In this document: in pieces, positions 12,250 through 39,998 of the stretch
Layout of the letters: every line of letters starts with the position of its first letter
Numbering within the stretch: the stretch's first letter is position 1
Program-made: the position numbers and the translations under genes
Source of the DNA: Deltaproteobacteria bacterium
Lineage (GTDB): Bacteria > Desulfobacterota > Dissulfuribacteria > Dissulfuribacterales > UBA5754
Length of the DNA stretch: 39,998 nucleotides
Direction of reading: 5' to 3'
Assembly (NCBI GenBank): GCA_036574075.1
Contig: JAINCN010000038.1
Span: 1-39,998 of the forward strand
The notes under the pieces: generated by a model
The model's database searches: none
Told to the model about the DNA's origin: nothing
What the model saw: only the letters and a program-made list of their open reading frames with translations

Positions 12250-12424
12250 CCTGAATCCGTGAGATATGCACTCAACCTTTCGATTTCACAGTATAAGCCT
12301 ACGGCCGGGGTATTTGTGGAGTGAGGCGCCCATGGACGGGGCTCGAACGGCAAATCCGCCCCCATGGACGGGGGCTATTTGCCGCACGGAACAAATACCC
12401 CGGCCGTAGGCCCACGGATTCAGG
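12250..12424 (+). repeat. Cloverleaf repeat, full-length copy upstream of hisB
   Basis: Full 175-bp copy. The left end is CCTGAATCCGTGAG and the right end is CCACGGATTCAGG. The long stem GCCTACGGCCGGGGTATTTG pairs with CAAATACCCCGGCCGTAGGC. The inner hairpin CGGCAAAT…CCCCC-ATGGAC-GGGGG…ATTTGCCG is intact, while the first hairpin is altered (GGCGCCCATGGACGGGGCTCG). It lies 66 bases before hisB, within the 5' region that must carry the hisB promoter or leader. Confidence 0.92.
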
Positions 12425-23427: not shown

Positions 23428-23602
23428 CCTGAATCCGTGAGATATGCACTCAACCTTTCGATTTCACAGCATAAGCCTACGGGCCGGGGTATTTGTGGAT
23501 GGAGGCGCCCATGGACGGGCGCCGTCGGCAAATCTGCCCCCATGGACGGGGGCTATTTGCCGCACGAAACAAATACCCCGGCCGTAGGCTCACGGATTCA
23601 GG
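23428..23602 (+). repeat. Cloverleaf repeat, best full-length copy (hisS-tetR gap)
   Basis: Reference copy of 175 bp. Outer inverted repeat CCTGAATCCGTGAG/CTCACGGATTCAGG. A 33-base single-stranded arm occurs on the left side only. The long stem is GCCTACGG…CCGGGGTATTTGT with ACAAATACCCCGGCCGTAGGC. Hairpin 1 is GGCGCCC-ATGGAC-GGGCGCC. Hairpin 2 is CGGCAAAT…CCCCC-ATGGAC-GGGGG…ATTTGCCG. Both loops are the same. It separates the divergent hisS and tetR genes. Confidence 0.93.
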
Positions 23603-27312: not shown

Positions 27313-28172
27313 GCATCCCCATCCCCCTCCCCTTCCTCTACAGACCGATCGTCCACGCCGCCCTTAGGGAGGATCTAGAACACGGCGACATCACGACCAC
27401 CCTTACCATCCCTAAGGACATGACGGGTACTGCCGTCATCGTCGCCAAGGAGGACGCGGTAATCGCAGGGGTCTTTGCGGCCAGGGAGGCATTTCTCCAG
27501 CTGGACCCAGAGGCCGAGTTCTTCGATGTCTGCGGGGAAGGTGAGACCCGCCGGCCTCACGAGGTCGTCATGGGGGTGAAGGGGAGGCTTTCCGCCATAC
27601 TCCAGGCAGAGCGGGTGGCCCTCAATTTCCTTCAGAGGCTCTCGGGGATCGCGAGCCTCACCCGGGATTTCGCGACACAACTGGCTGGGCTTTCCTGCAC
27701 CGTAACAGACACCCGAAAGACGACGCCCGGACTCCGACTTCTCGAAAAATTCGCGGTCCTTGCAGGAGGAGGGAAAAACCACCGATTCGGGCTCTCGGAC
27801 GGTGTCCTCATCAAGGACAATCACATTGCGGCCTGCGGATCCGTCCGATCCGCCGTGGCAAGGGCACGCAAGGCCGCACCCCATACCCTCCTCATAGAGG
27901 TCGAAGTAAGCTCCACCGAGGCCCTTGAAGAGGCAGTACAGGCAGGGGCGGATGCAGTACTTCTCGACAACATGACGCCAGACGAGGTGAAAGAGGCGGT
28001 TGCGTTCGCCAGAGGCCTCAAGCATGACCTTATCCTCGAGGCCTCTGGAGGGATAAACCTCACGAACGTCAGGGCCTACGGCGAGGCAGGTGTTGACATC
28101 GTCTCGGTGGGGGCACTCACACACTCGGCCCGGGCCAAGGATCTCTCACTTCGCGTCCTTCCATCGAAATAA
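27309..28172 (+). CDS. nadC: Nicotinate-nucleotide pyrophosphorylase (carboxylating)
   Basis: Quinolinate phosphoribosyltransferase of 287 residues that makes nicotinate mononucleotide from quinolinate and PRPP in de novo NAD synthesis. Motifs seen: REDLEHGDITT near the start, the active-site segment VTDTRKTTPGLR (about 131-142), GGGKNHRFGLSD and IKDNHI, and the C-terminal EASGGI. The ATG overlaps the valS stop (ATGA), so the two are coupled. Nothing of nadA or nadB is in the window. Confidence 0.96.
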   Translation: MSIPIPLPFLYRPIVHAALREDLEHGDITTTLTIPKDMTGTAVIVAKEDAVIAGVFAAREAFLQLDPEAEFFDVCGEGETRRPHEVVMGVKGRLSAILQAERVALNFLQRLSGIASLTRDFATQLAGLSCTVTDTRKTTPGLRLLEKFAVLAGGGKNHRFGLSDGVLIKDNHIAACGSVRSAVARARKAAPHTLLIEVEVSSTEALEEAVQAGADAVLLDNMTPDEVKEAVAFARGLKHDLILEASGGINLTNVRAYGEAGVDIVSVGALTHSARAKDLSLRVLPSK

Positions 28173-28822: not shown

Positions 28823-28917
28823 TCAGCAATGAAATTGTATAAAAGCGGAAAGATCCATGCAAGGACCTATGCTAATCGGACATATATTTGAGGTGCTTGA
28901 CTTGGCACTTTCATTAT

Positions 28918-28946
28918 GGTAACACGTTATAAATTTTCGTGTTACC
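28918..28946 (+). promoter_or_regulatory. Operator-like perfect inverted repeat upstream of TonB receptor 1
   Basis: GGTAACACG and CGTGTTACC (9-base arms) are separated by 11 AT-rich bases that include TTATAAAT. The repeat ends 15 bases before the receptor ATG and overlaps the likely promoter (TTGACT at about 28899). Its half-sites are the same heptamers reported for deltaproteobacterial NikR operators, but in the opposite order, so the regulator is open. Metal-responsive repression is the obvious hypothesis. Confidence 0.6.
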
Positions 28947-28961
28947 AATGAGAGGTCATCC

Positions 28962-31199
28962 ATGCCCCTTCCTTTACCTCGCCTCCGCCCCCTGCTTGTC
29001 GGACTTTTTCCGTGTATTTCTGTCCTGTGCACCCCAATCTTATCCCATGCAGACAGCAGTCCCGCCTCCGAACCGGTCAACATTCCGGAAATGGAGGTAG
29101 TAGAGGAGTACATCTCTCCGACCCGTCAGGTCACTGACTCCCTTGCCACCGGGACCATGGTGACCCAAAGCGGCCTCGAGCTGGGCGGCCCGTCGGCCAA
29201 AGTAAACGTCTATGACTCCATTGACATCCTCCCCGGCATCATGGTCCAGGGGACGGACCCGTATGGGCTTGGAATGACACAATCCAGGATAAGAAGCGTC
29301 AAGGGGATGCTTGGCGGCATGACGGTCGAGGGGATCCCCAACTACGGGATCATGCCCATCGGGCCGAGGGCAGGGATCTACGACATGGAAAACGTAAGGG
29401 AGATCGCCCTATACCGAGGCGGCACACCCGCAGACCTGATGGCGGGAAGCGGAAACAAGGCGGGAGCGATAGAACTTCGCATGAGGCGACCCTCCAAGGC
29501 CCCCGCAGCCGAGGCCGATCTCTCCGTCGGGACCGACGATTACACGAGGGGTTTTATTCGAATCGACTCAGGGACCCTTCCTGGCGCCTTCAGCCTCTTC
29601 GCCTCTGCCTCCCGCACGGACGCGGACAAATGGAAAGGTCCGGGAGACCTTGGCCCCCGGGACCACCTGACTGGTGGCATGAGATGGGAGCCGGGCGAAC
29701 GATTCACGGCCGACGTCTTTTTCTCCTTCAACGAGTCTGAGACAGACGACTTCCGGCCGTTCACCTTCGGCGAGGCACGAAAGATCGAGGACCTGAGGCG
29801 TATGGACTACAATGAACGGTTCACAGGCACCCCAAAGGAGGATGCCCTCTATTACAAATACCACACAAGGGAGGCCATAAACCGGGACCTCTTTGGGGTG
29901 ATGGAGGCCAAACTCGCCGACAAAATCCTTTTTACCCTGAAGCCATACTACTCGCATGAGACCGGGGACACCCTCGAAGGGACCCTCGCCGGCAGCACCC
30001 CCATCGTAAAGGGAGGCGTAGTGGATCTGGATCGCTACGGCACGATCAGCGAACTCAGCGGGGAGTTCTCGGGGGTTAAGAGTACCATCGGCCTCTGGCA
30101 CGAGTCTTTCGATCTGGAGAAATACGTCAGGAAATCCGTCATCACCCCGGACGGCCTCGTATCTCAGGGGTATGCCTATTATGCGGAAAACCATGGACGC
30201 GGCACGACACTAAGCCCCTTCTTCAAGGTATCCCAGGAACTTGGCAGATGGAGATGGCAGGCAGGCGCCCGGTATTTCTCCTACGAGGAGCCGGCCTCCG
30301 CCGGATACAAGACACCTCCTCCGGCATTCCGCCTGGTCAAAGACCCTGCGACAAGCCTCGATGAGATGGATTACACGGCCTTTCTCCCGTCCGCAGGCCT
30401 GGGGTATTCCTTTACTGATGCCCTTGAGGGATACCTCACGTACGGAAGAAACTACGTCCGCCCCTACATGTACGTCCCCATCACGAATCTTTACGTCCAG
30501 AACAAGGCCGCCTTTGAGAAGGCCGGAATCACCCTCCAGGACATCTTCGACGACTGGGAGATGGAGACCTCAGACACCGCAGACCTCGGCCTCAGATTCA
30601 CGGAAGGGCCTCTGGAGATCGACGCAACGCTCTTTTACGCCTGGCATCACGACGTCCTTGCCAACGTCGCTGATTCTCGAGTGGCTGGGGTATCCTACTA
30701 CCAGAACGCAGGCGAGGCGCGCTCATACGGAGCGGAACTCATCGCATGCGCCCGTCCCGCATCGTCCCTGACGGTCTTTGTGCACCCCTCCCTCACATAC
30801 ATGCGTTTCGACGACGACATCATCCGCGGGGGAAAGACACTTAACCTCGCAGGCAAGGACTACCCGGACGCACCCCGATGGAACGTGAAGACGGGGATCA
30901 TCTGGAACTGGGAGGGGATCGAGATCGCCCCGCAGCTCACGTGGATGAGCAAACGCTATGGAGACGCCCTGAATGTAGAAGAGATCCACACCCCGGCCCT
31001 TGTGGATCTCTCTGTCTCTTACTCCACGAAAGGCATACTGGGCCTGAAAGAAGGCAGGATCGGACTCGATATTACGAATCTTTTTGACGAGGAATATATC
31101 TCCATTATCGATCTCATGGACGACAATGGACCAGGGAGCGCCTCATACTACGCCGGCCCCCCGTTCTCAGCGGTCTTCTCCATCTCCGGGAGGTACTGA
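28962..31199 (+). CDS. TonB-dependent outer-membrane receptor (TBDT 1), probable nickel/cobalt
   Basis: Outer-membrane active transporter of 745 residues. A signal peptide ends near residue 30 (SHADSS). A plug domain follows (about 60-175: DSIDILPGIMVQGTD, REIALYRGGTPADLMAGSGNKAGAIEL), then a 22-strand type beta-barrel rich in alternating aromatic strands. It ends in …FSAVFSISGRY, the aromatic terminus typical of outer-membrane proteins. The substrate is inferred from context: the next gene, three bases away, is a NikK-like protein, and an ECF nickel transporter lies downstream. GAGAGG precedes the ATG, and an inverted-repeat operator sits upstream. Confidence 0.88.
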   Translation: MPLPLPRLRPLLVGLFPCISVLCTPILSHADSSPASEPVNIPEMEVVEEYISPTRQVTDSLATGTMVTQSGLELGGPSAKVNVYDSIDILPGIMVQGTDPYGLGMTQSRIRSVKGMLGGMTVEGIPNYGIMPIGPRAGIYDMENVREIALYRGGTPADLMAGSGNKAGAIELRMRRPSKAPAAEADLSVGTDDYTRGFIRIDSGTLPGAFSLFASASRTDADKWKGPGDLGPRDHLTGGMRWEPGERFTADVFFSFNESETDDFRPFTFGEARKIEDLRRMDYNERFTGTPKEDALYYKYHTREAINRDLFGVMEAKLADKILFTLKPYYSHETGDTLEGTLAGSTPIVKGGVVDLDRYGTISELSGEFSGVKSTIGLWHESFDLEKYVRKSVITPDGLVSQGYAYYAENHGRGTTLSPFFKVSQELGRWRWQAGARYFSYEEPASAGYKTPPPAFRLVKDPATSLDEMDYTAFLPSAGLGYSFTDALEGYLTYGRNYVRPYMYVPITNLYVQNKAAFEKAGITLQDIFDDWEMETSDTADLGLRFTEGPLEIDATLFYAWHHDVLANVADSRVAGVSYYQNAGEARSYGAELIACARPASSLTVFVHPSLTYMRFDDDIIRGGKTLNLAGKDYPDAPRWNVKTGIIWNWEGIEIAPQLTWMSKRYGDALNVEEIHTPALVDLSVSYSTKGILGLKEGRIGLDITNLFDEEYISIIDLMDDNGPGSASYYAGPPFSAVFSISGRY

Positions 31200-31202
31200 T
31201 CA

Positions 31203-31985
31203 GTGAAAATCCGCATTGTCTCTCTTGTCTTTCTCGCTTTCTTCGCGGTCCAGCCCGCCTGCGGCCATGCCCACTTTTTATGGATGAACCCCAACACTTA
31301 TAGCCCGGAACCGGCTGAAGGGATCAGCATCTCCTTCGGCTTCGGCCACGCCTTTCCATACAGCGGGGAATTCCTCGAAAAAGAGGCCATTGGGCACGTT
31401 TTTCTCGCAGCCCCGGATGGAAAACGTAAGGTCATCTCCTTGGAAGACGGAAAGGTGGTTTATCATCTTCCTCCCCTTCCTTCCCGATCCGGCACTTACA
31501 TGATCTCAGCGGCAAATAAGGGGGGCTACTTCACCAAGACGGCCGAAGGAGTGAGACCCGTCCCCAAGAACCAGGCCGAAGGGGCCATCTCTTCGGTATT
31601 CCTTTCATGCTCGAGCAAGGCGCTGCTCGTAGCCGGAACTCCCGGAGGCAAGGGATACGCAGAGGCCGCTGGAACAGACATGGAGATCATCCCGCTCGAG
31701 GACCCCACAACCCTCAGGCCTGGTGCGTATCTTCCTATCCGGGTGCTTTTGCGGGGAAGACCCCTCGCCGACACCTTCGTCCAGGCCACCTATGACGGGT
31801 TTTCCCCGTGGGGCAAGATCGCCTTTGCCTATTCCACCAAGACAAATGGGGAAGGCATAGCGCACATCCGCCTTGAAAAACGGGGAGTCTGGCTGATCTT
31901 AGCCCGTAACAAGGCGCCCTGTCCGGACCCATCCCTCTGCGACAACGAAGTCCTGAACGCCACCCTCACCTTCGAGATCCCATGA
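31203..31985 (+). CDS. NikK-like periplasmic protein (DUF4198), copy 1
   Basis: Protein of 260 residues starting with GTG, three bases after the TonB receptor. A signal peptide of about 22 residues precedes a mature N-terminus rich in histidine (GHAHFLWMNP). The rest is a beta-rich domain (GISISFGFGHAFPYSGEF…, LPIRVLLRGRPLADTFVQATYDG) matching the DUF4198/NikK group that accompanies ECF nickel transporters. It probably binds or hands on metal in the periplasm. Its stop overlaps a residual nikL start (ATGA); that nikL copy is destroyed a few codons later by an insertion. Confidence 0.8.
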   Translation: MKIRIVSLVFLAFFAVQPACGHAHFLWMNPNTYSPEPAEGISISFGFGHAFPYSGEFLEKEAIGHVFLAAPDGKRKVISLEDGKVVYHLPPLPSRSGTYMISAANKGGYFTKTAEGVRPVPKNQAEGAISSVFLSCSSKALLVAGTPGGKGYAEAAGTDMEIIPLEDPTTLRPGAYLPIRVLLRGRPLADTFVQATYDGFSPWGKIAFAYSTKTNGEGIAHIRLEKRGVWLILARNKAPCPDPSLCDNEVLNATLTFEIP

Positions 31986-32004
31986 AGACGAATCCGCTTC
32001 CGCG
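31982..32004 (+). pseudogene. Residual 5' end of a nikL gene
   Basis: ATG followed by codons for Lys-Thr-Asn-Pro-Leu matches the start of the intact NikL-like gene at 33654 (Met-Ile-Thr-Asn-Pro-Leu). The nucleotide match continues from 31950 to about 32002. After that, sequence of an ISL3-type transposase takes over in the same frame. This is what remains of a nikL cut by the insertion. Confidence 0.65.
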
Positions 32005-32236
32005 GAATGGATCTCAGAATCCGAACACAAACAACGGCCACATCAAGGCCTTTAACGGCATCTTCCATGCCGTCAAGGCAAATGCAGGGGTATACCGTAA
32101 TGTCGAGGCCTTCACATCAGCACCATCTATCTCATCGCCATACCCATCCAGGAACTCATCAAATTCCCAATGAAATGACGAAGAGCCGGGTTGGCTCCTC
32201 TAATGGTCTCCAATCAACTCGAAACGTCGAGGAGCC
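32003..32236 (+). mobile_element. ISL3-family transposase 3' remnant with right end
   Basis: The frame following the nikL remnant encodes the last segment of an IS204/IS1001/IS1096/IS1165-type transposase: NGHIKAFNGIFHAVKANAG, YRNVEAF and, after a frameshift at about 32120, TIYLIAIPIQELIKFP. About 60 bases after its stop lies the putative right inverted repeat CGAAACGTCGAGGAGCC (32220-32236), which read inward begins GGCTCCTCG, as ISL3 ends do. The left part of the element and most of the gene are missing. A nearly identical end without a transposase occurs at 34385-34401. Confidence 0.7.
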
Positions 32237-32284
32237 CAATTTTTGTATCTCTCCGTGAAGGTATCCTTGTTCAAAAAGGGAAGG

Positions 32285-33466
32285 ATGGACTATGAACCAG
32301 TAAGCTATATCAGCTTTAGTGGCTATTACCATGAAGTTTTTCATAGACCCATTACGTTCATTACTGACCTAAACGGGGCCTTGAAGTGGGTCTATATTGA
32401 AGAAAGTGACTTTATAGTCGAAGCAGGGATACTGTTCAAAAGGACCCAAGGAGGAAAGTGGATCTTTTACGATTCATCTCTTTATTCAGAGTGCTTTGAT
32501 CTCACAGGCATACACTATCTCCCAGTCTCTATGGACTTCTCGTATGGTGGGATTCAATCTGAGCGGGATAAAAACAGGCTTAAACAAGCACTGTCTCTCT
32601 GGGATAAGTTGCTCGCGTCTCATTATGCTCAAAACCCCCACGTATTCTTCTTTGACAATAGGGGGCTTTTGAGACGTGATCTTCAGCTTCGAAGAATCCT
32701 TAAGGGTACTATCCCTGTAATCCCACCAGAGGCTGTATTTGTTGATTACGATGTAATACCAGTGCTTTTGTCACACGGCTGTCTGTCCAATTGCAGTTTT
32801 TGTTGTGTCAAGACAGGTGGAGAGCCAACTTTTCGTCCCATTTCAGAAGTGAAGATGCAAATCAGGGCAATCAAAGAATGGATAGGTCAAGATGGGAAAA
32901 ACTATTCCACTGTATTTTTTGGACAAAACGACGCTTTATCCGTAGATACAAATCTTTTGGAAGAAGCAGCTTATAGTGTATTTAAGGCTTTTTCTCTAAA
33001 AAATGCCTATATACGGCCAACAAGGCTCATGATGTTTGGCTCGCCTATTTCTCTATTGGAGAAAAAACTAACTGATTTTTCAAGGCTTGACAGTTTACCA
33101 TTCGACAAGGTGCATATAAACGTTGGCATCGAATCCCTTGATGACAAAACACTCAATGTCATTGGACGACCATTTGGGTCAGAAGTAAACCAGAAGGCCA
33201 TTAGACAGATACATGAGATCCATGAAAGTACCCAAAAAATTGAGGTGAGCATAAACTTCCTCATAGGCCCCAATTTGCCTCAATGCCATTTCGCCTCACT
33301 CTCTCATCACCTTCAAAACTTTCCCTTCATGGGCAAGGGCTGTGTATTTGTCTCGCCGCTTTTTGGCGAGTACAAAGGGATAGGACAGGTGAAAAGAGAT
33401 GTATTTTACTTAAAGGCCCTCTCCAAGGTCCCTGTTTTTCTGTACTTACTTGTGAGTATGCTCTAA
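32285..33466 (+). CDS. Radical SAM protein of unknown substrate
   Basis: Protein of about 393 residues with the cluster motif CLSNCSFC near residue 170, preceded by VIPVLLSHG, and the typical later elements IRPTRLMM and INVGIESLDDKTLNVIG. The first 150 residues are unusual and contain no known domain that I recognise. The gene is clearly AT-richer than TBDT 1 and nikK upstream, and it lies inside an insertion between nikK and nikL, both signs of transfer. The C-terminus (SKVPVFLYLLVSML) ends seven bases before a cloverleaf repeat and may be truncated. The ATG at 32285 has GGGAAGG next to it; an ATG at 32243 is an alternative. Confidence 0.75.
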   Translation: MDYEPVSYISFSGYYHEVFHRPITFITDLNGALKWVYIEESDFIVEAGILFKRTQGGKWIFYDSSLYSECFDLTGIHYLPVSMDFSYGGIQSERDKNRLKQALSLWDKLLASHYAQNPHVFFFDNRGLLRRDLQLRRILKGTIPVIPPEAVFVDYDVIPVLLSHGCLSNCSFCCVKTGGEPTFRPISEVKMQIRAIKEWIGQDGKNYSTVFFGQNDALSVDTNLLEEAAYSVFKAFSLKNAYIRPTRLMMFGSPISLLEKKLTDFSRLDSLPFDKVHINVGIESLDDKTLNVIGRPFGSEVNQKAIRQIHEIHESTQKIEVSINFLIGPNLPQCHFASLSHHLQNFPFMGKGCVFVSPLFGEYKGIGQVKRDVFYLKALSKVPVFLYLLVSML

Positions 33467-33473
33467 TAAAAGT

Positions 33474-33621
33474 CCTGAATCCGTGAGCCTACGGCCGGGG
33501 TATTTGTTCCGTGCGGCAAATAGCCCCCCGTCCATGGGGGCAGATTTGCCGTTCGAGCCCTATCCATGGGCGCCTCACTCCACAAATACCCCGGCCGTAG
33601 GCTTATGCTGTGAAATCGAAA
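33474..33621 (-). repeat. Cloverleaf repeat, copy missing its distal end
   Basis: Reverse orientation. It begins with CCTGAATCCGTGAGCC and keeps the long stem and both hairpins, but stops at …CTGTGAAATCGAAA without the far inverted repeat. At exactly that point a duplicated nikK 3' end begins. It therefore marks the right edge of the insertion that carries the radical SAM gene. Confidence 0.9.
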
Positions 33622-33657
33622 ATCCTGAACGCCACCTTCACCTTCGTGATCCCATGA
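33621..33657 (+). pseudogene. Duplicated 3' end of nikK
   Basis: Twelve codons, ILNATFTFVIP and stop, match the end of the intact NikK-like gene (VLNATLTFEIP, 31950-31985). The stop overlaps the NikL start here exactly as it does at 31982. The nucleotide match to 31950-32002 extends over about 53 bases with about eight differences, so the two junctions are diverged copies and not a fresh target duplication. Confidence 0.7.
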
Positions 33658-34127
33658 TAACGAATCCACTTTCGCGCCTCACTTTCCGTTTCATCACCTT
33701 CGCCCTTGTCTCTGTCTGCATCTTTCTCGATCCGGACAGGGCAGATGCGCACAACATGACCATCAGGTCCATTCCTGATAGAAAGGCCGTCGTCCTCAAG
33801 GGGGTCTATTCGGACGGAGAGCCTGCCTCAGGGGCCGAATTCGTCATCCGAAGGGGCGATGAGGGGAAAATCTTTCAAAAAGGCTATGCAGACATCAACG
33901 GGGTATTTGCCTTCTGCCCCACCGGGGACGGGCCATGGATCGTGTCCCTCGACGATCACATGGGCCACAAAACGACGCAGCGGATACAAACGGAACCTGG
34001 GCCTGCTGTCTCACCAAGACCAACGAACGACACCAAAGATGCCTCGAGTTCTCGATTCCTGCCTGCCATAACCGGTGTAAGCATCCTTTTCGGACTCTGG
34101 GGCCTGTGGCAGGTCTCCAGGAGGTGA
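33654..34127 (+). CDS. NikL-like membrane-anchored protein, copy 1
   Basis: Protein of 157 residues. A signal peptide ends in ADA|HNM (about residue 32), an extracytoplasmic beta-rich domain of about 75 residues follows (VVLKGVYSDGEPASGAEFVI…), and a C-terminal membrane helix is at about 130-150 (FLPAITGVSILFGLWGLW). This layout, and the motif with SDG after a beta-strand, is the same as in the NikL gene at 36218. NikL proteins replace NikN/CbiN in some nickel ECF systems. No nikM, nikQ or nikO follows here; the cluster breaks into a receptor fragment. A longer frame to 33483 runs through a repeat and is rejected. Confidence 0.75.
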   Translation: MITNPLSRLTFRFITFALVSVCIFLDPDRADAHNMTIRSIPDRKAVVLKGVYSDGEPASGAEFVIRRGDEGKIFQKGYADINGVFAFCPTGDGPWIVSLDDHMGHKTTQRIQTEPGPAVSPRPTNDTKDASSSRFLPAITGVSILFGLWGLWQVSRR

Positions 34128-34198
34128 GGTGATAGTTTATAAAACCCAGACGATCTGCGGCATAGGCCCGGTGGAACTGGACACTGAGACGTTAAGAC

Positions 34199-34348
34199 CT
34201 CTTTCGTAACCTCATGAAACACTAATCAAAAATTTGGTAGAGGAGGAAATGGTTGAAATGGAATGGTTGAAATGCGGTGTAGTGTTGACACTGGTTCTTG
34301 GATACCCGTTATCGCTATCAGCCCAGGAACAACCAAAAGAGCCACACA
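34199..34348 (+). pseudogene. 5' fragment of TonB receptor 2
   Basis: From about 34199 to 34345 the sequence is nearly identical to 38513-38660, covering the leader region and the signal-peptide codons of TonB receptor 2 (MEWLKCGVVLTLVLGYPLSLSAQEQ). The match stops abruptly after the codons for EPHS and an ISL3-like end follows. The fragment cannot make a receptor. Confidence 0.85.
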
Positions 34349-34401
34349 GTAGTGTATTGGAGCCCATTAAACTCCAAATCCACACGAAACGTCGAGGAGC
34401 C
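34349..34401 (+). mobile_element. ISL3-like right end without transposase
   Basis: The last 17 bases, CGAAACGTCGAGGAGCC (34385-34401), are identical to the IS end at 32220-32236, and the preceding 15 bases are similar (ACTCCAAATCCACA versus TCTCCAATCAACT). It sits directly after the receptor fragment and marks the left edge of the nikKMLQO insertion. Confidence 0.6.
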
Positions 34402-34411
34402 AAAAAAATGT

Positions 34412-34440
34412 TTGACATACTAACCTTATGGTGTTACTAA
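34412..34440 (+). promoter_or_regulatory. Strong sigma-70-like promoter upstream of the nik cassette
   Basis: TTGACA (34412-34417) and TACTAA (34435-34440) are spaced by 17 bases. A GTGTTAC heptamer overlaps the -10 (34431-34437), and the palindrome-like partner TAATAC follows at about 34451. GTGTTAC is a half-site of the inverted repeat upstream of TonB receptor 1, so both promoters may answer to the same metal regulator. The promoter lies about 400 bases before nikK, with a cloverleaf repeat between. Confidence 0.45.
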
Positions 34441-34499
34441 TTTTAAAAAATAATACTCCTTGCATCACCCCACATCCGCAAGAAATGCGCATAACTATC

Positions 34500-34641
34500 T
34501 GATTTTACAAAATAAGCCTACGGACAGGGTGTTTGTGGAGTGAGGCGCCCATAGACGGGCGCCGAAGGCAAATCCGCCCCCATGGGCGGGGCTATTTGCC
34601 GCGCGGAACAAATACCTCGAACGTCGGCTCACGGATCCAGG
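34500..34641 (+). repeat. Cloverleaf repeat, copy with left end missing
   Basis: It begins at GATTTTACAAAATAAGCC, the same variant as the fragment at 1565. It keeps the GGCGCCC hairpin and GGCAAAT…ATTTGCC, and ends in GGCTCACGGATCCAGG. The stems carry several mismatches. It forms the left flank of the nik cassette, in the same orientation as the copy on its right flank (38335). Confidence 0.88.
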
Positions 34642-34836
34642 TACTCTAAAAAAGGAAACAAAGATGACTACTTCCATTTCTAAAGGAGGTATATGGCATG
34701 TCTCTCTGACATCATCTGATTTATTCGATCATAGAGAATTTTGATGTTGATGTGGGGGTAAAGGGTGGTCTTAATAAACCTGAGACCGATTCAATAATCT
34801 TTGCCGGTATAACATTGAGATTTTAGGAGGAATGTC
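34642..34836 (+). other. Leader region of the nik cassette
   Basis: No gene is evident. A good Shine-Dalgarno (AAAGGAGG at about 34682) precedes two very short frames of 3-8 codons. A weak hairpin (GGTCTTAATAAACC…GAGACC) lies near 34770. The nikK ribosome binding site TAGGAGGA is at about 34825. I see no known riboswitch. Confidence 0.3.
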
Positions 34837-35616
34837 ATGAAAAAAGAACTGTTCAAGGTAAATGCAATAGTAATAACTACCTCACTTTTGACATTTGTAT
34901 CGAGTTCATTTGCGCACTTTGGCGTAATACTGCCATCCGATGACATTGTTTCACCTAAGGACAATAAACATATCCAATTGCATATCAAATTCATGCATCC
35001 TTTTGATCAGGACTACATGAACATGGAGATGCCAAAGGCATTCGGAGTTCTCGTCAATGAGAAAAAACAGGACCTTCTTAAAACTTTAAAAAAGAAGACA
35101 ATAAAAGAATGCTCTACATGGGAAGCCCCATATGTCATTAAAGAGCCAGGCGACCACATCTTTTATGTGGAGCCTACTCCCTACTGGGAGCCTGCTGAGG
35201 ATTCCTTTATAGCACACTACACAAAGGTAATTGTTAATGCCCTCGGAAAGGAAGATGGATGGGACGCCGAGGTCGGGCTAAAGACAGAAATAATACCACT
35301 TACAAGACCATACGGTATCTGGGCAGGAAATATTTTTCAGGGGATTGTAAAGGTTGATGGCAAGCCTGTGCCTTATGCAGAGGTGGAGGTGGAGTATTAT
35401 AACGAAAACAAAAAGATAACGGTGCCAGATGATGCATACAAAACGCAAATTATAAAGGCAGATGGCAATGGTGTGTTTACCTATGCCATTCCAAAGGCAG
35501 GGTGGTGGGGATTTGCAGCGCTTACTACTGCTGATTTCAAAATGAAGCATGAAGGTAAGGAATATCCTGTTCAGCTTGGTGCTGTCCTCTGGATTAAGGC
35601 AAGTGAGATGAAATAA
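34837..35616 (+). CDS. nikK: NikK-like periplasmic protein (DUF4198), copy 2
   Basis: Protein of 259 residues with a signal peptide that should be cut at SSSFA|HF, leaving a histidine as the first mature residue. The DUF4198 domain follows, with a metal-site-rich first part ([14 protein letters not shown]) and the repeated beta motif [18 protein letters not shown] near 175. A strong Shine-Dalgarno (TAGGAGGA) precedes the ATG. The stop overlaps the nikM start (TAATG). It is only distantly similar to copy 1 at 31203 and has the lower GC content of the whole nik cassette. Confidence 0.82.
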
Positions 35617-36221
35617 TGCATATATCGGAAGGTGTTCTTTCGGCGCCTGTTCTTGTGACAGGCGCCCTGCTCACTACTGCAGGGACAGCCATTGGGCTTA
35701 AAAGGATGACCTATGAGAGGATACCTGAGGTTGCAGTGCTTTCTGCTGCCTTTTTTGTAGCATCATTGATTCATGTGCCGATAGGCCCGTCCAGTGTGCA
35801 TCTCATACTGAACGGCCTCGTGGGTATCCTGCTTGGCTGGATGTCCTTTCCATCCACGCTAATTGCCCTTGCGCTGCAGGCGGTCCTCTTTCAGTTTGGT
35901 GGATTTACAGTACTCGGCGTAAATACTTTTAATGTGGCAGCACCGGCGGTGATGGTCTACTATCTCTTTAGACCACTTATAAGAAGGGATAATCAGTTAA
36001 TAACAGCTGTAGTAGGATTTCTGTCAGGCATGTTGCCTGTGGGTATAACTGCCATTTTTGTGGCATTATCCCTCGTAAGCACAGGAGAAGTATTTCTAAC
36101 TGCTGCAAAGGCAGTAGTTATCACCCATCTGCCCGTAATGTTGATTGAGGGGATCATCACCGCCTTTTGTATAGTCTTTTTGAAAAAGGTGAAACCAGAG
36201 ATTCTGGAGGGGAGTAGATGA
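35616..36221 (+). CDS. nikM: ECF transporter substrate-specific protein NikM/CbiM
   Basis: Integral membrane protein of 201 residues and the metal-selecting S component of a nickel/cobalt ECF transporter. It begins MHISEGVLS; the N-terminal amine and His2 are known metal ligands in this family. Further candidate ligands are in LIHVPIGPSSVHL (His53, His62). About six hydrophobic segments are seen. Nickel is favoured over cobalt because the partner genes are nikK and nikL and there is no cbiN, but this is inference. It overlaps nikK and nikL by 1-4 bases. Confidence 0.9.
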   Translation: MHISEGVLSAPVLVTGALLTTAGTAIGLKRMTYERIPEVAVLSAAFFVASLIHVPIGPSSVHLILNGLVGILLGWMSFPSTLIALALQAVLFQFGGFTVLGVNTFNVAAPAVMVYYLFRPLIRRDNQLITAVVGFLSGMLPVGITAIFVALSLVSTGEVFLTAAKAVVITHLPVMLIEGIITAFCIVFLKKVKPEILEGSR

Positions 36222-36913
36222 ATGCAGGTTTAAATATTCATGACACTGGATTCAGGGGTTTAATATTCTACTGTCTGTTTATCGTGTGTCTTGCCTCACC
36301 AGCTTATGCCCATAAAGTGAGCATTTATGCCTATGCAGAAGATGGCATGATCCACTCCGAGGGTTATTTTTCTGATGGCACAAAAGCAAGGAATTCGTTG
36401 GTTGTGGTCTATGATGAAAAAAGTGGCGCTAAACTCCTTGAAGGAAATACAGACGAAGAGGGAAAATTCTCATTCAGGATACCAAAAATTACAACCCTTA
36501 GACTGGATCTGCATGCAGGCATGGGACACAGGGCTGAATACACTCTGTCGGAAGATGAAGTGAGGGATGCATCAGATGTTAAGAGCAAGAAGTCAGGAGA
36601 GATACTCACGCCCCTCAGAGACACAAAGGAAAATAAAAATGTCATTCCTGAGGAAGCAGGAAACCAGAGGGTCACTGAAGAACTGGAATCCCGTTTTGGC
36701 GGGGATGACGAATCAAGGGGATTTTCTGATATCGAGGCGGTTATTGAGAGGGTCGTCGACAAAAGGCTTCAGCCTGTGATGAAGATGCTAATAGAGATAA
36801 AAGAAAAGATCGAAAGGCCCGGTTTTACAGAGGTGATCGGCGGCATTGGCTATATCATAGGAATCATGGGAATTATGGCGTATCAAAAGTCTAGAAAGGC
36901 AAAGAAAAACTGA
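36218..36913 (+). CDS. nikL: NikL-like membrane-anchored protein, copy 2
   Basis: Protein of 231 residues. A signal sequence ends in PAYA|HKV (about residue 30), a beta-rich extracytoplasmic domain follows (HSEGYFSDGTKARNSLVVVYDEKSG, then GNTDEEGKFSF; about 30-115), then a charged linker with a predicted coiled coil (AVIERVVDKRLQPVMKMLIEIKEK), and a C-terminal helix (about 205-222) with a basic tail. NikL occupies the place of NikN or CbiN in some nickel systems and should contact NikM. The ATG overlaps the nikM stop. Confidence 0.8.
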   Translation: MNAGLNIHDTGFRGLIFYCLFIVCLASPAYAHKVSIYAYAEDGMIHSEGYFSDGTKARNSLVVVYDEKSGAKLLEGNTDEEGKFSFRIPKITTLRLDLHAGMGHRAEYTLSEDEVRDASDVKSKKSGEILTPLRDTKENKNVIPEEAGNQRVTEELESRFGGDDESRGFSDIEAVIERVVDKRLQPVMKMLIEIKEKIERPGFTEVIGGIGYIIGIMGIMAYQKSRKAKKN

Positions 36914-36914
36914 T

Positions 36915-37685
36915 TTGCACTTCGAAGAATTTGCTGAAGGAAACTCCTTTTTTCACAGACTCGATCCGAGGGTCAAGTTTATAACCCTGGTGCCATACAT
37001 CTCTGTTATTGCTATCATGAATGGGATAAGGCTGCCGTTTCTGGCCCTTATCGTTTCCACTTTGATGGCATCTCTTGCAGGCATTAGAACTAAAAGTCTC
37101 TTTAACAGGCTGATTGTTGTTAATGCCTTTGTATTTTTCCTGTGGCTGTTTGTCCCCTTCAGTTACCCGGGAAATGCAGTCTTTCATATAGGCTCTCTAA
37201 AGGCCACAAAGGAAGGCTTTCTCTATGTCCTTTCCATCACATTTAAGACAAATGCAATCATTCTTGCGACGATAGCGATACTGGGAACATCAAGTGTCCT
37301 TTCCCTTGCCCATGCCCTTCACCACCTCAGGCTTCCAGATAAGCTCATCCATCTATTCTTTTTCTTTTACAGGTACATAAGCGTCCTGCATGAGGAATAT
37401 ACAAAGCTCAGAAATGCAATGCTCATCAGGGCATTCAAGGCAAAGACAGACATGCGTACATACAGGGCATATGCATATCTCATAGGCATGCTTCTTGTCA
37501 GGAGCTTTGAGCGCTCACAGAGGATTTACAGGGCGATGCTCTGCAGGGGATTTAAAGGCAGGTTTTATGTGATGAGCCATTTTGAACTCAAAAGAAGTGA
37601 TGTATTATTCTGCCTTTTAATGGCCGTAATAACATGCGTAATGGGATTTCTATTTATCAGCAAGGAATGGGCATGGAAAGCTTAA
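36915..37685 (+). CDS. nikQ: ECF transporter T component NikQ/CbiQ
   Basis: Integral membrane coupling protein of 256 residues. The N-terminus GNSFFHRLDPRVKF is the typical start of CbiQ-type proteins, and hydrophobic segments occupy the first half. The cytoplasmic coupling helices carry two Ala-Arg-Gly-like boxes (MLIRAFKAK near 173 and MLCRGFKGR near 210). The start is a TTG at 36915, one base after the nikL stop; no ATG lies near. The end overlaps nikO. Confidence 0.9.
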   Translation: MHFEEFAEGNSFFHRLDPRVKFITLVPYISVIAIMNGIRLPFLALIVSTLMASLAGIRTKSLFNRLIVVNAFVFFLWLFVPFSYPGNAVFHIGSLKATKEGFLYVLSITFKTNAIILATIAILGTSSVLSLAHALHHLRLPDKLIHLFFFFYRYISVLHEEYTKLRNAMLIRAFKAKTDMRTYRAYAYLIGMLLVRSFERSQRIYRAMLCRGFKGRFYVMSHFELKRSDVLFCLLMAVITCVMGFLFISKEWAWKA

Positions 37686-38347
37686 TAGAAATTCGAGACC
37701 TGTGTTTTAGTTATACTATAGAAAGAAAGGTATTTAATGGTCTTGATTTTACGCTTATGCGAGGCGAAAGAATTGGCATCACAGGCCCCAATGGCGCCGG
37801 CAAGAGCACATTGCTCTATTTGATAATGGGACTTTTGAAAGCAACATCAGGGGAGATAAGGGTATTTAAACACCTCAGGAAAGAAGAAAGGGATTTTACA
37901 GAGGTCAGACAGAGAATCGGACTCCTCTTTCAGGATTCGGATGACCAGCTTTTTTGTCCGACCGTTGAAGAGGATATTGCCTTTGGGCCCTTAAATCTCG
38001 GGAAGTCACAGCAGGAGGCAATGACAATAGTGAGGGAGACCTGTGAGAGGTTGGGACTTTCCGGTTTTGAAAGAAGGATTACTCATCGCTTATCAGGAGG
38101 AGAAAAGAGACTGGTTGCCCTTGCCACTGTTATGGCAATGAATCCCGAATGCCTTTTGCTTGATGAGCCAACGACCGGACTTGATGCGGCAACAACGGAG
38201 AGGTTTCTGAGATATCTTAAGGAAAGTGCCGATACATATGTCATCGTTACCCACGACCGCGGATTTTTAAAAGACGCAGTGGACAGGCTTTTCCTCTTGA
38301 CTGACAGTAAAATTACAGAGATTAAGGGAGAAGACCTGAATCCGTGA
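37673..38347 (+). CDS. nikO: ECF transporter ATPase NikO/CbiO
   Basis: ABC ATPase of 224 residues that powers the NikMQ transporter. Walker A is GPNGAGKST (38-46), the Q-loop QDSDDQL begins at about 87, the signature LSGGEKRL is at 140-147, Walker B is LLLDEP (161-166) and a switch His is in VTHDRG. The ATG at 37673 has AAGGA at good distance; 37667 is an alternative. The last codons (Asp-Leu-Asn-Pro-stop) are the first bases of a cloverleaf repeat, so the C-terminus was set or altered by the element. The protein is slightly short, consistent with this. Confidence 0.92.
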   Translation: MESLIEIRDLCFSYTIERKVFNGLDFTLMRGERIGITGPNGAGKSTLLYLIMGLLKATSGEIRVFKHLRKEERDFTEVRQRIGLLFQDSDDQLFCPTVEEDIAFGPLNLGKSQQEAMTIVRETCERLGLSGFERRITHRLSGGEKRLVALATVMAMNPECLLLDEPTTGLDAATTERFLRYLKESADTYVIVTHDRGFLKDAVDRLFLLTDSKITEIKGEDLNP

Positions 38348-38510
38348 GATATACACTCAACCTTTCGATTTCACAGCATAAGCCTACGGCCGGGGTATTT
38401 GTGGAGTGAGGCGCCCATGGATGGGGCTCGAACGGCAAATCTGCACCCATGGACAGGAGGCTTTTTGCCGCACGAAACAAATACCCCGGCCGTAGGCTCA
38501 CGGATTCAGG
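38335..38510 (+). repeat. Cloverleaf repeat, full-length copy after nikO
   Basis: Full 176-bp copy with perfect CCTGAATCCGTGAG and CTCACGGATTCAGG ends. The long stem is intact and the inner hairpins are slightly altered (GGCGCCCATGGATGGGGCTCG, GCACCCATGGACAGGAGGC). It starts inside the nikO coding sequence and ends three bases before the duplicated receptor 5' region, so it is the right edge of the nikKMLQO insertion. Confidence 0.93.
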
Positions 38511-38571
38511 ATCTCTTTCGTAAACACATGAAACACTAATCAAAAATTTGGTAGAGGAGGAACTGGTTGAA

Positions 38572-39816
38572 ATGGAAGGGTTGAAATGCGGTGTAGTGTT
38601 GACACTCGTTCTTGGATACCCTTTATCGCTATCAGCCCAGGAACAAACAAAAGAGCCACTCAGTCTGGATGAGGTGGTGGTTTCTGCCACCCGGTCAGAG
38701 ATTCCGGTGTTTGATGCACCTCAAAGCGTTACGGTCATTTCTAACGAGGAACTTATGGCCTCGCCCTTTGAGCGTGTAGAGGACATTGTCCGCAGTGTCT
38801 CGGGCATGTATAATTTTCGGCATTTTGCCTTGCAAACACATGGCATCGTCAGTCCGCTAAAAATGCGTGGTGTAGGTAACAACAGAGTCCTGATATTAGT
38901 GGACGGGGTACCGCAGAATGACAATTTCAATAACACCATTGCCTGGGTGGCATGGGGCCACATTCCAAAGGAAACCATCGAACGTATAGAAATCGTGAGG
39001 GGACCGACCTCAGCACTTTACGGATCAGAGGGGCTTGGCGGTGTGATTCATATCATCACCAAAAAACCGGGGGCCAAGAGACAAACCTCGGTTCGTGGCG
39101 AAGCTGGAACTGCGGACACATATGGAGGATACGGCTTTCACAGCCAGAAGATCAAAGACTTCGGTTTCATGGTGGCAGGCGGTTACGAGGAGAGTGATGG
39201 TTTCTATATGGTAGAAGACCCTGAGGATTATGAGATCAAACGTTATCGAGAGGTCGGAAAAGTCTTCGGCAAGGCAACCTATGATATATCGCCCGGGTCC
39301 GATCTATCGTTTGCAGCACTCTATTATGACCACGAAACCGGAAAAGGACGAGAGTTTTTTTACGATGAATTAACCCTGGATCAATACTGGATGCAATACA
39401 ACCATGATGGGGAATCTTTTGATTTGAAAGGGCTTGTCTATTTGAACCGGGCCGACAAGACCGCCTTCCAGGATACGGCAAAAGATAATTATTCATCATT
39501 ATTAAGAAAGGAAGAGATACCCGCCACTACATGGGGCGCTGATTTTCAAGGAACCATACCATTCGGCCCCCAGACGAAGTTCACTTTAGGCGCTGCCTAC
39601 AAAGAGAGCTCCTGGGATTACGATGATGAATATGTCGCCAGCACAAGGGATGAAGGCGCAGAGGGCAAGCAGAGTTTTATCTCGCCTTTCGCAAACTTGG
39701 AGTTTCGTTTCCTTGATAACAACCTGATTCTAAATCTCGGAGCGCGATACGACTGGATCAAAACCTCAGACGGCGCCAACTGGGACAGCCAGGGCAGCGC
39801 CGGAAAACCTGCCTAT
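38572..39816 (+). pseudogene. TonB-dependent receptor 2, truncated by an IS
   Basis: Receptor of the BtuB/CirA type. A signal peptide (residues 1-23, …LSLSAQ) is followed by a TonB box-like segment (SLDEVVVSATRSE), a complete plug domain (VRSVSGMYNF, MRGVGNNRVLILVDGVPQND, IEIVRGPTSALYGSEGLGGVIHIITKKPG) and the first barrel strands. After codons for AGKPAY the frame enters an IS481/IS3-like element and stops at 39840, about 415 residues in, losing about one third of the barrel. It would not insert as a working receptor unless the IS is absent in other cells. The ATG at 38572 follows GAGGAGG; a TTG at 38548 is an alternative. Confidence 0.85.
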
Positions 39817-39998
39817 GTGTCATGTCCCGAGAGATCATAGACCGTTTTGGTGAAGAGTTCCGGTTTCATTTCCTGCCATTTTTTGAGTGCCTGTACCGGG
39901 GTGATATGACCGAGTGCCTTTTGGGGGATCTGGTGGTTATATAGGCGGACATAGCGATAAAGGGTGGCCTTGAGTTCTTTTGAGGATGGAAATCGTGT
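39812..39998 (-). mobile_element. IS481/IS3-like integrase, C-terminal part, at window edge
   Basis: The minus strand encodes the last 60 or so residues of a DDE integrase-type transposase: SSKELKATLYRYVRLYNHQIP, KALGHITPVQALKKW, ELFTKTVYDLSGHD, then stop at 39812-39814. The Tyr-Asn-His-Gln and Pro-rich ALG…TP block is typical of IS481- and IS3-group integrases. The IS end is probably TGTCATGTCCCGAG at about 39817, so the stop codon itself lies in receptor sequence. The rest of the IS lies beyond the window. Confidence 0.85.

Follow-up and report, generated by a model that had tools for sequence, protein, structure and literature searches.

How did two blocks of foreign or orphan genes come to lie in the nickel-uptake locus of this bacterium, each between direct copies of host sequence? 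The locus lies at one end of the window, the whole stretch of DNA analysed here (39,998 nucleotides), which is an entire 40-kb contig (C38) of a draft assembly of 1.99 Mb in 66 contigs (G000). An initial annotation had read the blocks as two insertions with the same architecture, namely an ISL3-like end, cargo, a cloverleaf repeat and a flanking duplication, and had concluded from their shared borders that one mechanism produced both. We compared the locus with a genome of the same genus (G001, 83% complete), and took genome-wide repeat and duplication counts from 1.45 Mb, or 73% of the genome. The features are listed below; the cloverleaf repeat is named as the MITE that it proves to be, and coordinates outside the window carry their contig.

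31203..31985, + strand: nikK-like gene (DUF4198), intact; 82% amino acid identity to G001
31948..32004, + strand: duplication 1, left copy; final nikK codons and first nikL codons, the rest of nikL being absent here
32005..32190, + strand: ISL3-family IS remnant; internally deleted transposase C-terminal end through the right end (..GACGAAGAGCC), host side broken
32195..32236, + strand: second ISL3 remnant, of left-end type (GGCTCCTC..CGAAACGTCGAGGAGCC); faces the cargo
32285..33466, + strand: orphan radical-SAM gene, 393 aa, cargo of segment 1; Pfam PF04055, E 1.2e-8
33474..33621, + strand: MITE1 (cloverleaf copy 1); element positions 1-148 of about 176
33620..33676, + strand: duplication 1, right copy; final nikK codons and nikL start
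33654..34127, + strand: nikL-like gene, intact; NF058648, E 2.8e-13, under the family cut-off
34196..34350, + strand: duplication 2, left copy; sequence upstream of TonB receptor 2 and its first codons
34351..34401, + strand: truncated ISL3-derived mini-palindrome, facing the cargo; intact 68-bp form at C21:320-387
about 34469..34642, - strand: degenerate MITE of subfamily B, separating the ISL3 end from the cargo; left edge set by eye
34837..38347, + strand: nikKMLQO nickel/cobalt ECF uptake operon, cargo of segment 2
38335..38510, - strand: MITE2, full length; no target-site duplication
38510..38664, + strand: duplication 2, right copy; 5' end of TonB receptor 2
38548..39840, + strand: TonB-dependent receptor 2, cut at about 39824 by an IS copy; contig end

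The flanking duplications are real. Duplication 1 is the nikK-nikL junction, 57 bp with 88% identity, on both sides of the radical-SAM gene; duplication 2 is the 5' end of TonB receptor 2, 155 bp with 94% identity, around nikKMLQO. They are not due to chance: in G001 the junction is single, nikK and nikL are adjacent on contig C2 with a 4-bp ATGA overlap and no insert, and window positions 28826-31998 and 33609-34120 align to G001 stretches that share 61 bp. Relative to G001, where nikK-nikL is uninterrupted, segment 1 is therefore inserted DNA accompanied by a duplicated junction. Counted on the alignment, the two copies of duplication 1 show 7 mismatches to each other over 57 positions, and 8 and 9 mismatches to G001, so this duplication would be later than, or about as old as, the species split. 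The higher identity of duplication 2 (94%) indicates that it is the more recent of the two. TonB receptor 2 and the nik block have no DNA match in the 83% complete G001, and the empty-site comparison is therefore limited to segment 1.

The cargo is foreign or orphan DNA. Relatives of the radical-SAM protein are remote and partial, at 23-37% identity only. The cargo NikK finds its best match, at 58%, in another family of the same order, versus 49% to the G001 homologue, and the nikKMLQO block is therefore not the genus's own copy. The proposal of insertions with flanking duplications is supported as regards foreign or orphan cargo and repeat-derived sequence at the borders, and is unsupported as regards one shared mobile architecture. 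The spacer at 34402-34468 was inspected for a NikR-like palindrome; no clear palindrome was seen, nor conservation upstream of homologues, and this candidate was dropped. Downstream, the IS copy at 39824-39998 that cuts TonB receptor 2 (a transposase C-terminus) has near-identical copies at C28:44224 and C59:44514.

The cloverleaf is an element of about 175 bp with 14-bp terminal inverted repeats (CCTGAATCCGTGAG / CTCACGGATTCAGG; 30 copies aligned with their flanks), and these repeats were found at 405 ends genome-wide versus 0 for a reversed control. Short (mostly 174-176 bp) and non-coding, it occupies 202 places in 1.45 Mb, one per 7.2 kb, and about 270 candidate copies are present in the genome. 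Our first sample, 766 kb, held 104 places, 67 of them full length. Exact target duplications flank 39 of these 67 (29 of 5 bp, 9 of 6 bp and 1 of 7 bp), a further 9 match at 4 of 5 bases, and 19 match at three or fewer of 5. Terminal inverted repeats, target duplications and high copy number together identify the cloverleaf as a MITE. Its single-stranded DNA fold is very stable (-50.6 kcal/mol, z -8.5); Rfam and tRNA searches across the window gave zero matches. The window MITEs at 12250-12424 and 23428-23602 are ordinary insertions, full length and with exact target duplications. The family is common in G001, which is the sole full-length carrier among the 40 nearest genomes, the other 39 giving weak partial matches at most.

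Several features of the family were noted in passing. Subfamily B has a CATTTGATTTTACAAAAT-like arm and occurs at window positions 34501-34642 and at C14:36354, the window copy being at most 88% identical to some G001 copies. At C48:13490-14210 lies a 721-bp unit with a MITE on each side and a perfect TTAATT duplication at its outer flanks; with its relatives at C14:36354-37230 and C27:38912, which also hold passengers of a few hundred bp between two MITEs, it looks as if MITE pairs can move DNA as a composite. An autonomous partner was not found in the sampled 73% of the genome, where long inverted-repeat pairs with matching duplications are not in excess. Y1 chemistry does not fit 5-bp target duplications, and the Y1 transposases present in the genome were rejected as movers of the MITE on that ground. 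Exchange of target duplications among MITE copies gave 7 matching pairs versus 1.5 expected, a figure that is suggestive only, as the expectation assumes random 5-mers and is uncorrected for AT-rich targets.

At the opposite border of each segment, the motif CGAAACGTCGAGGAGCC ends at 32236 and 34401, where the initial annotation had placed it, and its two matches in the window lie above chance (0.16 expected). It forms 18 ends in the 1.45 Mb versus 0 for the reversed control, and belongs to an ISL3-family IS, of which it is the left end. In C27 and in segment 1 the ISL3 transposase C-terminus continues as far as the right end GACGAAGAGCC, and PF01610 is matched at C27 and C53; the remnant at 32005-32190, compared by eye with copies on C27, C48, C53 and C14, is 86% identical in DNA to C48:29548-29712. 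Intact 68-bp palindromic mini-elements derived from the left end alone occur at C21:320-387 and C43:2934-3001.

The MITE and ISL3 elements belong to known kinds. Like bacterial MITEs such as TIMEs (PMC4133298) and MITEAba12 (PMC6382973), the former is short, non-coding and present in high copy, with terminal inverted repeats and a short target duplication, and its pairs can flank passenger DNA; unlike them, it has its own terminal repeats (CCTGAATCCGTGAG) and a hairpin of about 175 bp. The ISL3 pieces resemble ISL3-family IS in their right end GACGAAGAGCC, their left end GGCTCCTCGACGTTTC and the PF01610 matches of transposase remnants elsewhere in the genome, and differ from intact members of that family in that the segments hold broken ends only.

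None of the borders, we found, combines a clean transposon terminus and a target duplication. The cloverleaves do meet the duplications, ending at 33621 and 38510, as had been claimed; MITE1, however, is truncated there and not complete. Its right 28 bp, including the terminal repeat, are missing, meaning that MITE1 meets duplication 1 at a break within the element. At the joint between MITE1 and nikK, GTGAAATCGAAA resembles GTGACATGGAAA of G001. The left border of segment 1 sits in the ISL3 transposase, outside any palindrome. MITE2 is flanked by GAAGA and ATCTC, which match at 0 of 5 bases, and its two sides are therefore unlike the product of a single insertion. MITE1 and MITE2 lie in opposite orientations; an inversion between them was considered and rejected, as the flanks restore no target duplications. 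The ISL3 remnants of the two segments are different fragments, each with its broken side towards the host duplication and its end towards the cargo, and two intact ISL3 ends with an 8-bp target duplication are absent around both segments. Microhomology at the borders is scarce, short and partly imperfect. Given a truncated MITE1, differing ISL3 remnants broken on the host side, MITEs in opposite orientation and an extra MITE in segment 2, neither the shared borders nor the shared architecture that had been taken to indicate one mechanism is supported.

A search of 73% of the genome for further blocks of ISL3 end, cargo and cloverleaf, among 202 MITEs and 18 ISL3 ends, yielded no others. Measured outward from an ISL3 end, the next MITE lies at a variable distance, from 100 bp to 8.6 kb. 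The other 16 ISL3 ends in the 1.45 Mb have no flanking host duplication, and for them this spacing is about 130 bp to 8.6 kb. Only 2 of the 202 MITE places adjoin a separated unique host duplication, both in this window, so a link between hairpins and such events rests on few cases. Self-comparison of the 1.45 Mb with MITEs masked gave 13 distinct low-copy local direct duplications (14 rows, two overlapping). Of the 13, three come to within 4 bp of a MITE edge at one of their borders, namely the two in the window and C14:52664; with about 0.25% of all positions this near to an edge, chance would account for about 1% of duplications. The analysis set out from the two in the window, which leaves 1 of 11 as the independent count, suggestive only.

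The other duplications are of several kinds. At C14:52664-52993 there is an exactly head-to-tail 165-bp tandem duplication (97%) that starts 4 bp from a MITE edge; the stretch C14:52486-52993 includes this duplication and the MITE beside it, which is old, with its AAATC target duplication intact. The kup gene (C21:118604-120607) lies between 88-bp host duplications (96.6%) whose borders carry neither MITE nor ISL3, which indicates that cargo with a flanking duplication can arise without these elements. The kup flanks (C21:118516-120695) are direct copies of the neighbouring gene's 3' end, and the arrangement is also found on contig C85 of G001. The separated duplications at C21:64120, C5:3559 and C23:12410 were set aside, since they look like paralogous coding or simple-repeat sequence, as was C16:24917, which resembles integron attC sites; the attC-like pair there (C16:24917-24971 and 27960-28014) suggests a gene-cassette array.

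Taken together, we tentatively favour two independent illegitimate insertion and duplication events, most likely through template switching, that were kept since the genes they split stayed whole. Each event would have joined non-orthologous DNA into the nickel-uptake locus and, in the same event, duplicated a short stretch of host sequence, 57 bp first and 155 bp more recently, with joints at or within multicopy repeat DNA that is mostly hairpin-forming. The likeliest step would be a template switch during replication or repair. The growing strand may have quit the host template at a joint with ISL3-derived repeat, copied or joined the cargo, and returned at a MITE hairpin tens of bases upstream of its exit, so that the flank was duplicated. 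The template-switch (MMBIR-type) model, as outlined in PMC2621351, is mainly concerned with human copy-number variants; its expected products are short insertions and duplications whose joints show microhomology, and its application here is a proposal. The exact 165-bp duplication beside a MITE at C14 and the stable MITE fold speak for it; against it stand the short and partly imperfect microhomology, the segment 1 left border, which lies outside any palindrome, and the small number of cases that link hairpins to such events. Ku was not found in G000 or G001, and classical end joining is therefore unlikely and was rejected. Selection may have retained such events, as nikK, nikL and TonB receptor 2 are each left with a complete copy; with 4 bp shared between the nikK stop and the nikL start, a plain insertion at that point would break one of the two genes. 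The flanking duplications are probably an unusual but ordinary outcome of rearrangement.

The main rival, which we regard as possible though rather unlikely, supposes that nikK-nikL and the TonB receptor were each once duplicated in tandem over a greater length, and that these older duplications were invaded by ISL3, MITE and cargo DNA, after which complementary deletions left a short overlap and selection kept one whole copy per gene. Short tandem duplications do exist in this genome (C14:52664-52993, C4:17213-17763 and C5:26235-27164), and the truncated ISL3 and MITE ends resemble deletion breakpoints. However, several events per segment would be required, the overlap would happen to be short in both, and nothing left over from a longer duplication was found outside the 57 and 155 bp.

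For segment 2, movement of the cargo as a MITE-MITE composite (34469-38510) into a site with a pre-existing duplication and ISL3 scrap seems improbable. TIMEs, which are Tn3-derived bacterial MITEs, have been shown to mobilise DNA between two copies (PMC4133298), and nikKMLQO lies between two MITEs as in a TIME-COMP or other MITE-flanked composite transposon; the C48 unit has the perfect outer duplication expected of such an element, and the outer flanks of the pair here, ATCAC and ATCTC, agree at 4 of 5 bases. This outer duplication is imperfect, unlike that of a TIME-COMP, and the host duplication is far longer. The left terminal repeat is degenerate with its edge set by eye, and for each choice of edge about 1.6% of trials would by chance give 4 or more matching bases of 5. 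Among long-distance inverted-repeat pairs, matching duplications are in no clear excess (2 of 531 at exactly 5 bp), and both the 155-bp duplication and segment 1 would be left unexplained.

There is a slim chance that false joining of short reads within the high-copy MITE, with MITE2 (38335-38510) as the likeliest place, created an artificial border at the TonB duplication. The assembly is a draft of 66 contigs, the MITE has about 270 candidate copies, and MITE2 has no target duplication, as is the case for 19 of 67 full-length copies, which match at three or fewer of 5 bases. A misjoin would not produce the segment 1 duplication, where MITE1 is truncated at a unique joint, and the window MITEs at 12250 and 23428, with exact duplications, look correctly joined.

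Single-crossover integration of small circles, each composed of a host piece and cargo, is very unlikely, even though it predicts exactly what is seen, cargo between direct copies of the shared host piece, and the kup case (88 bp, C21; common to G001) has the same form without MITE or ISL3 borders. Neither segment has an integrase or replication gene, 57 bp is short for homologous recombination, and the radical-SAM gene has no match among plasmids. We find it hardly credible that the segments represent a dedicated new mobile unit that has ISL3 sequence at one end and a MITE at the other and duplicates long targets: the two neighbours do both run from duplication through ISL3 scrap, cargo and MITE to duplication, but their ends are inconstant, the duplications measure 57 versus 155 bp, the MITEs lie in opposite orientations with one inside segment 2, and the genome-wide check (no further such unit in 73% of the genome) largely refutes it.

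The locus shows how, where a MITE occurs every 7 kb, a shared architecture that looks striking can arise. It also brings to light an abundant MITE family with 5-bp target duplications, full length, among the 40 nearest genomes, only here and in the same-genus relative. A bolder reading, to which we give a low probability, is that MITE hairpins serve as switch points at which replication exits and re-enters host DNA, so that genes would be gained in mid-operon, independently of a transposase and recurrently in MITE-rich genomes, with the junction duplicated and no gene broken. If true, this would offer a testable route by which non-coding repeats promote the insertion of genes without disruption of the operon.
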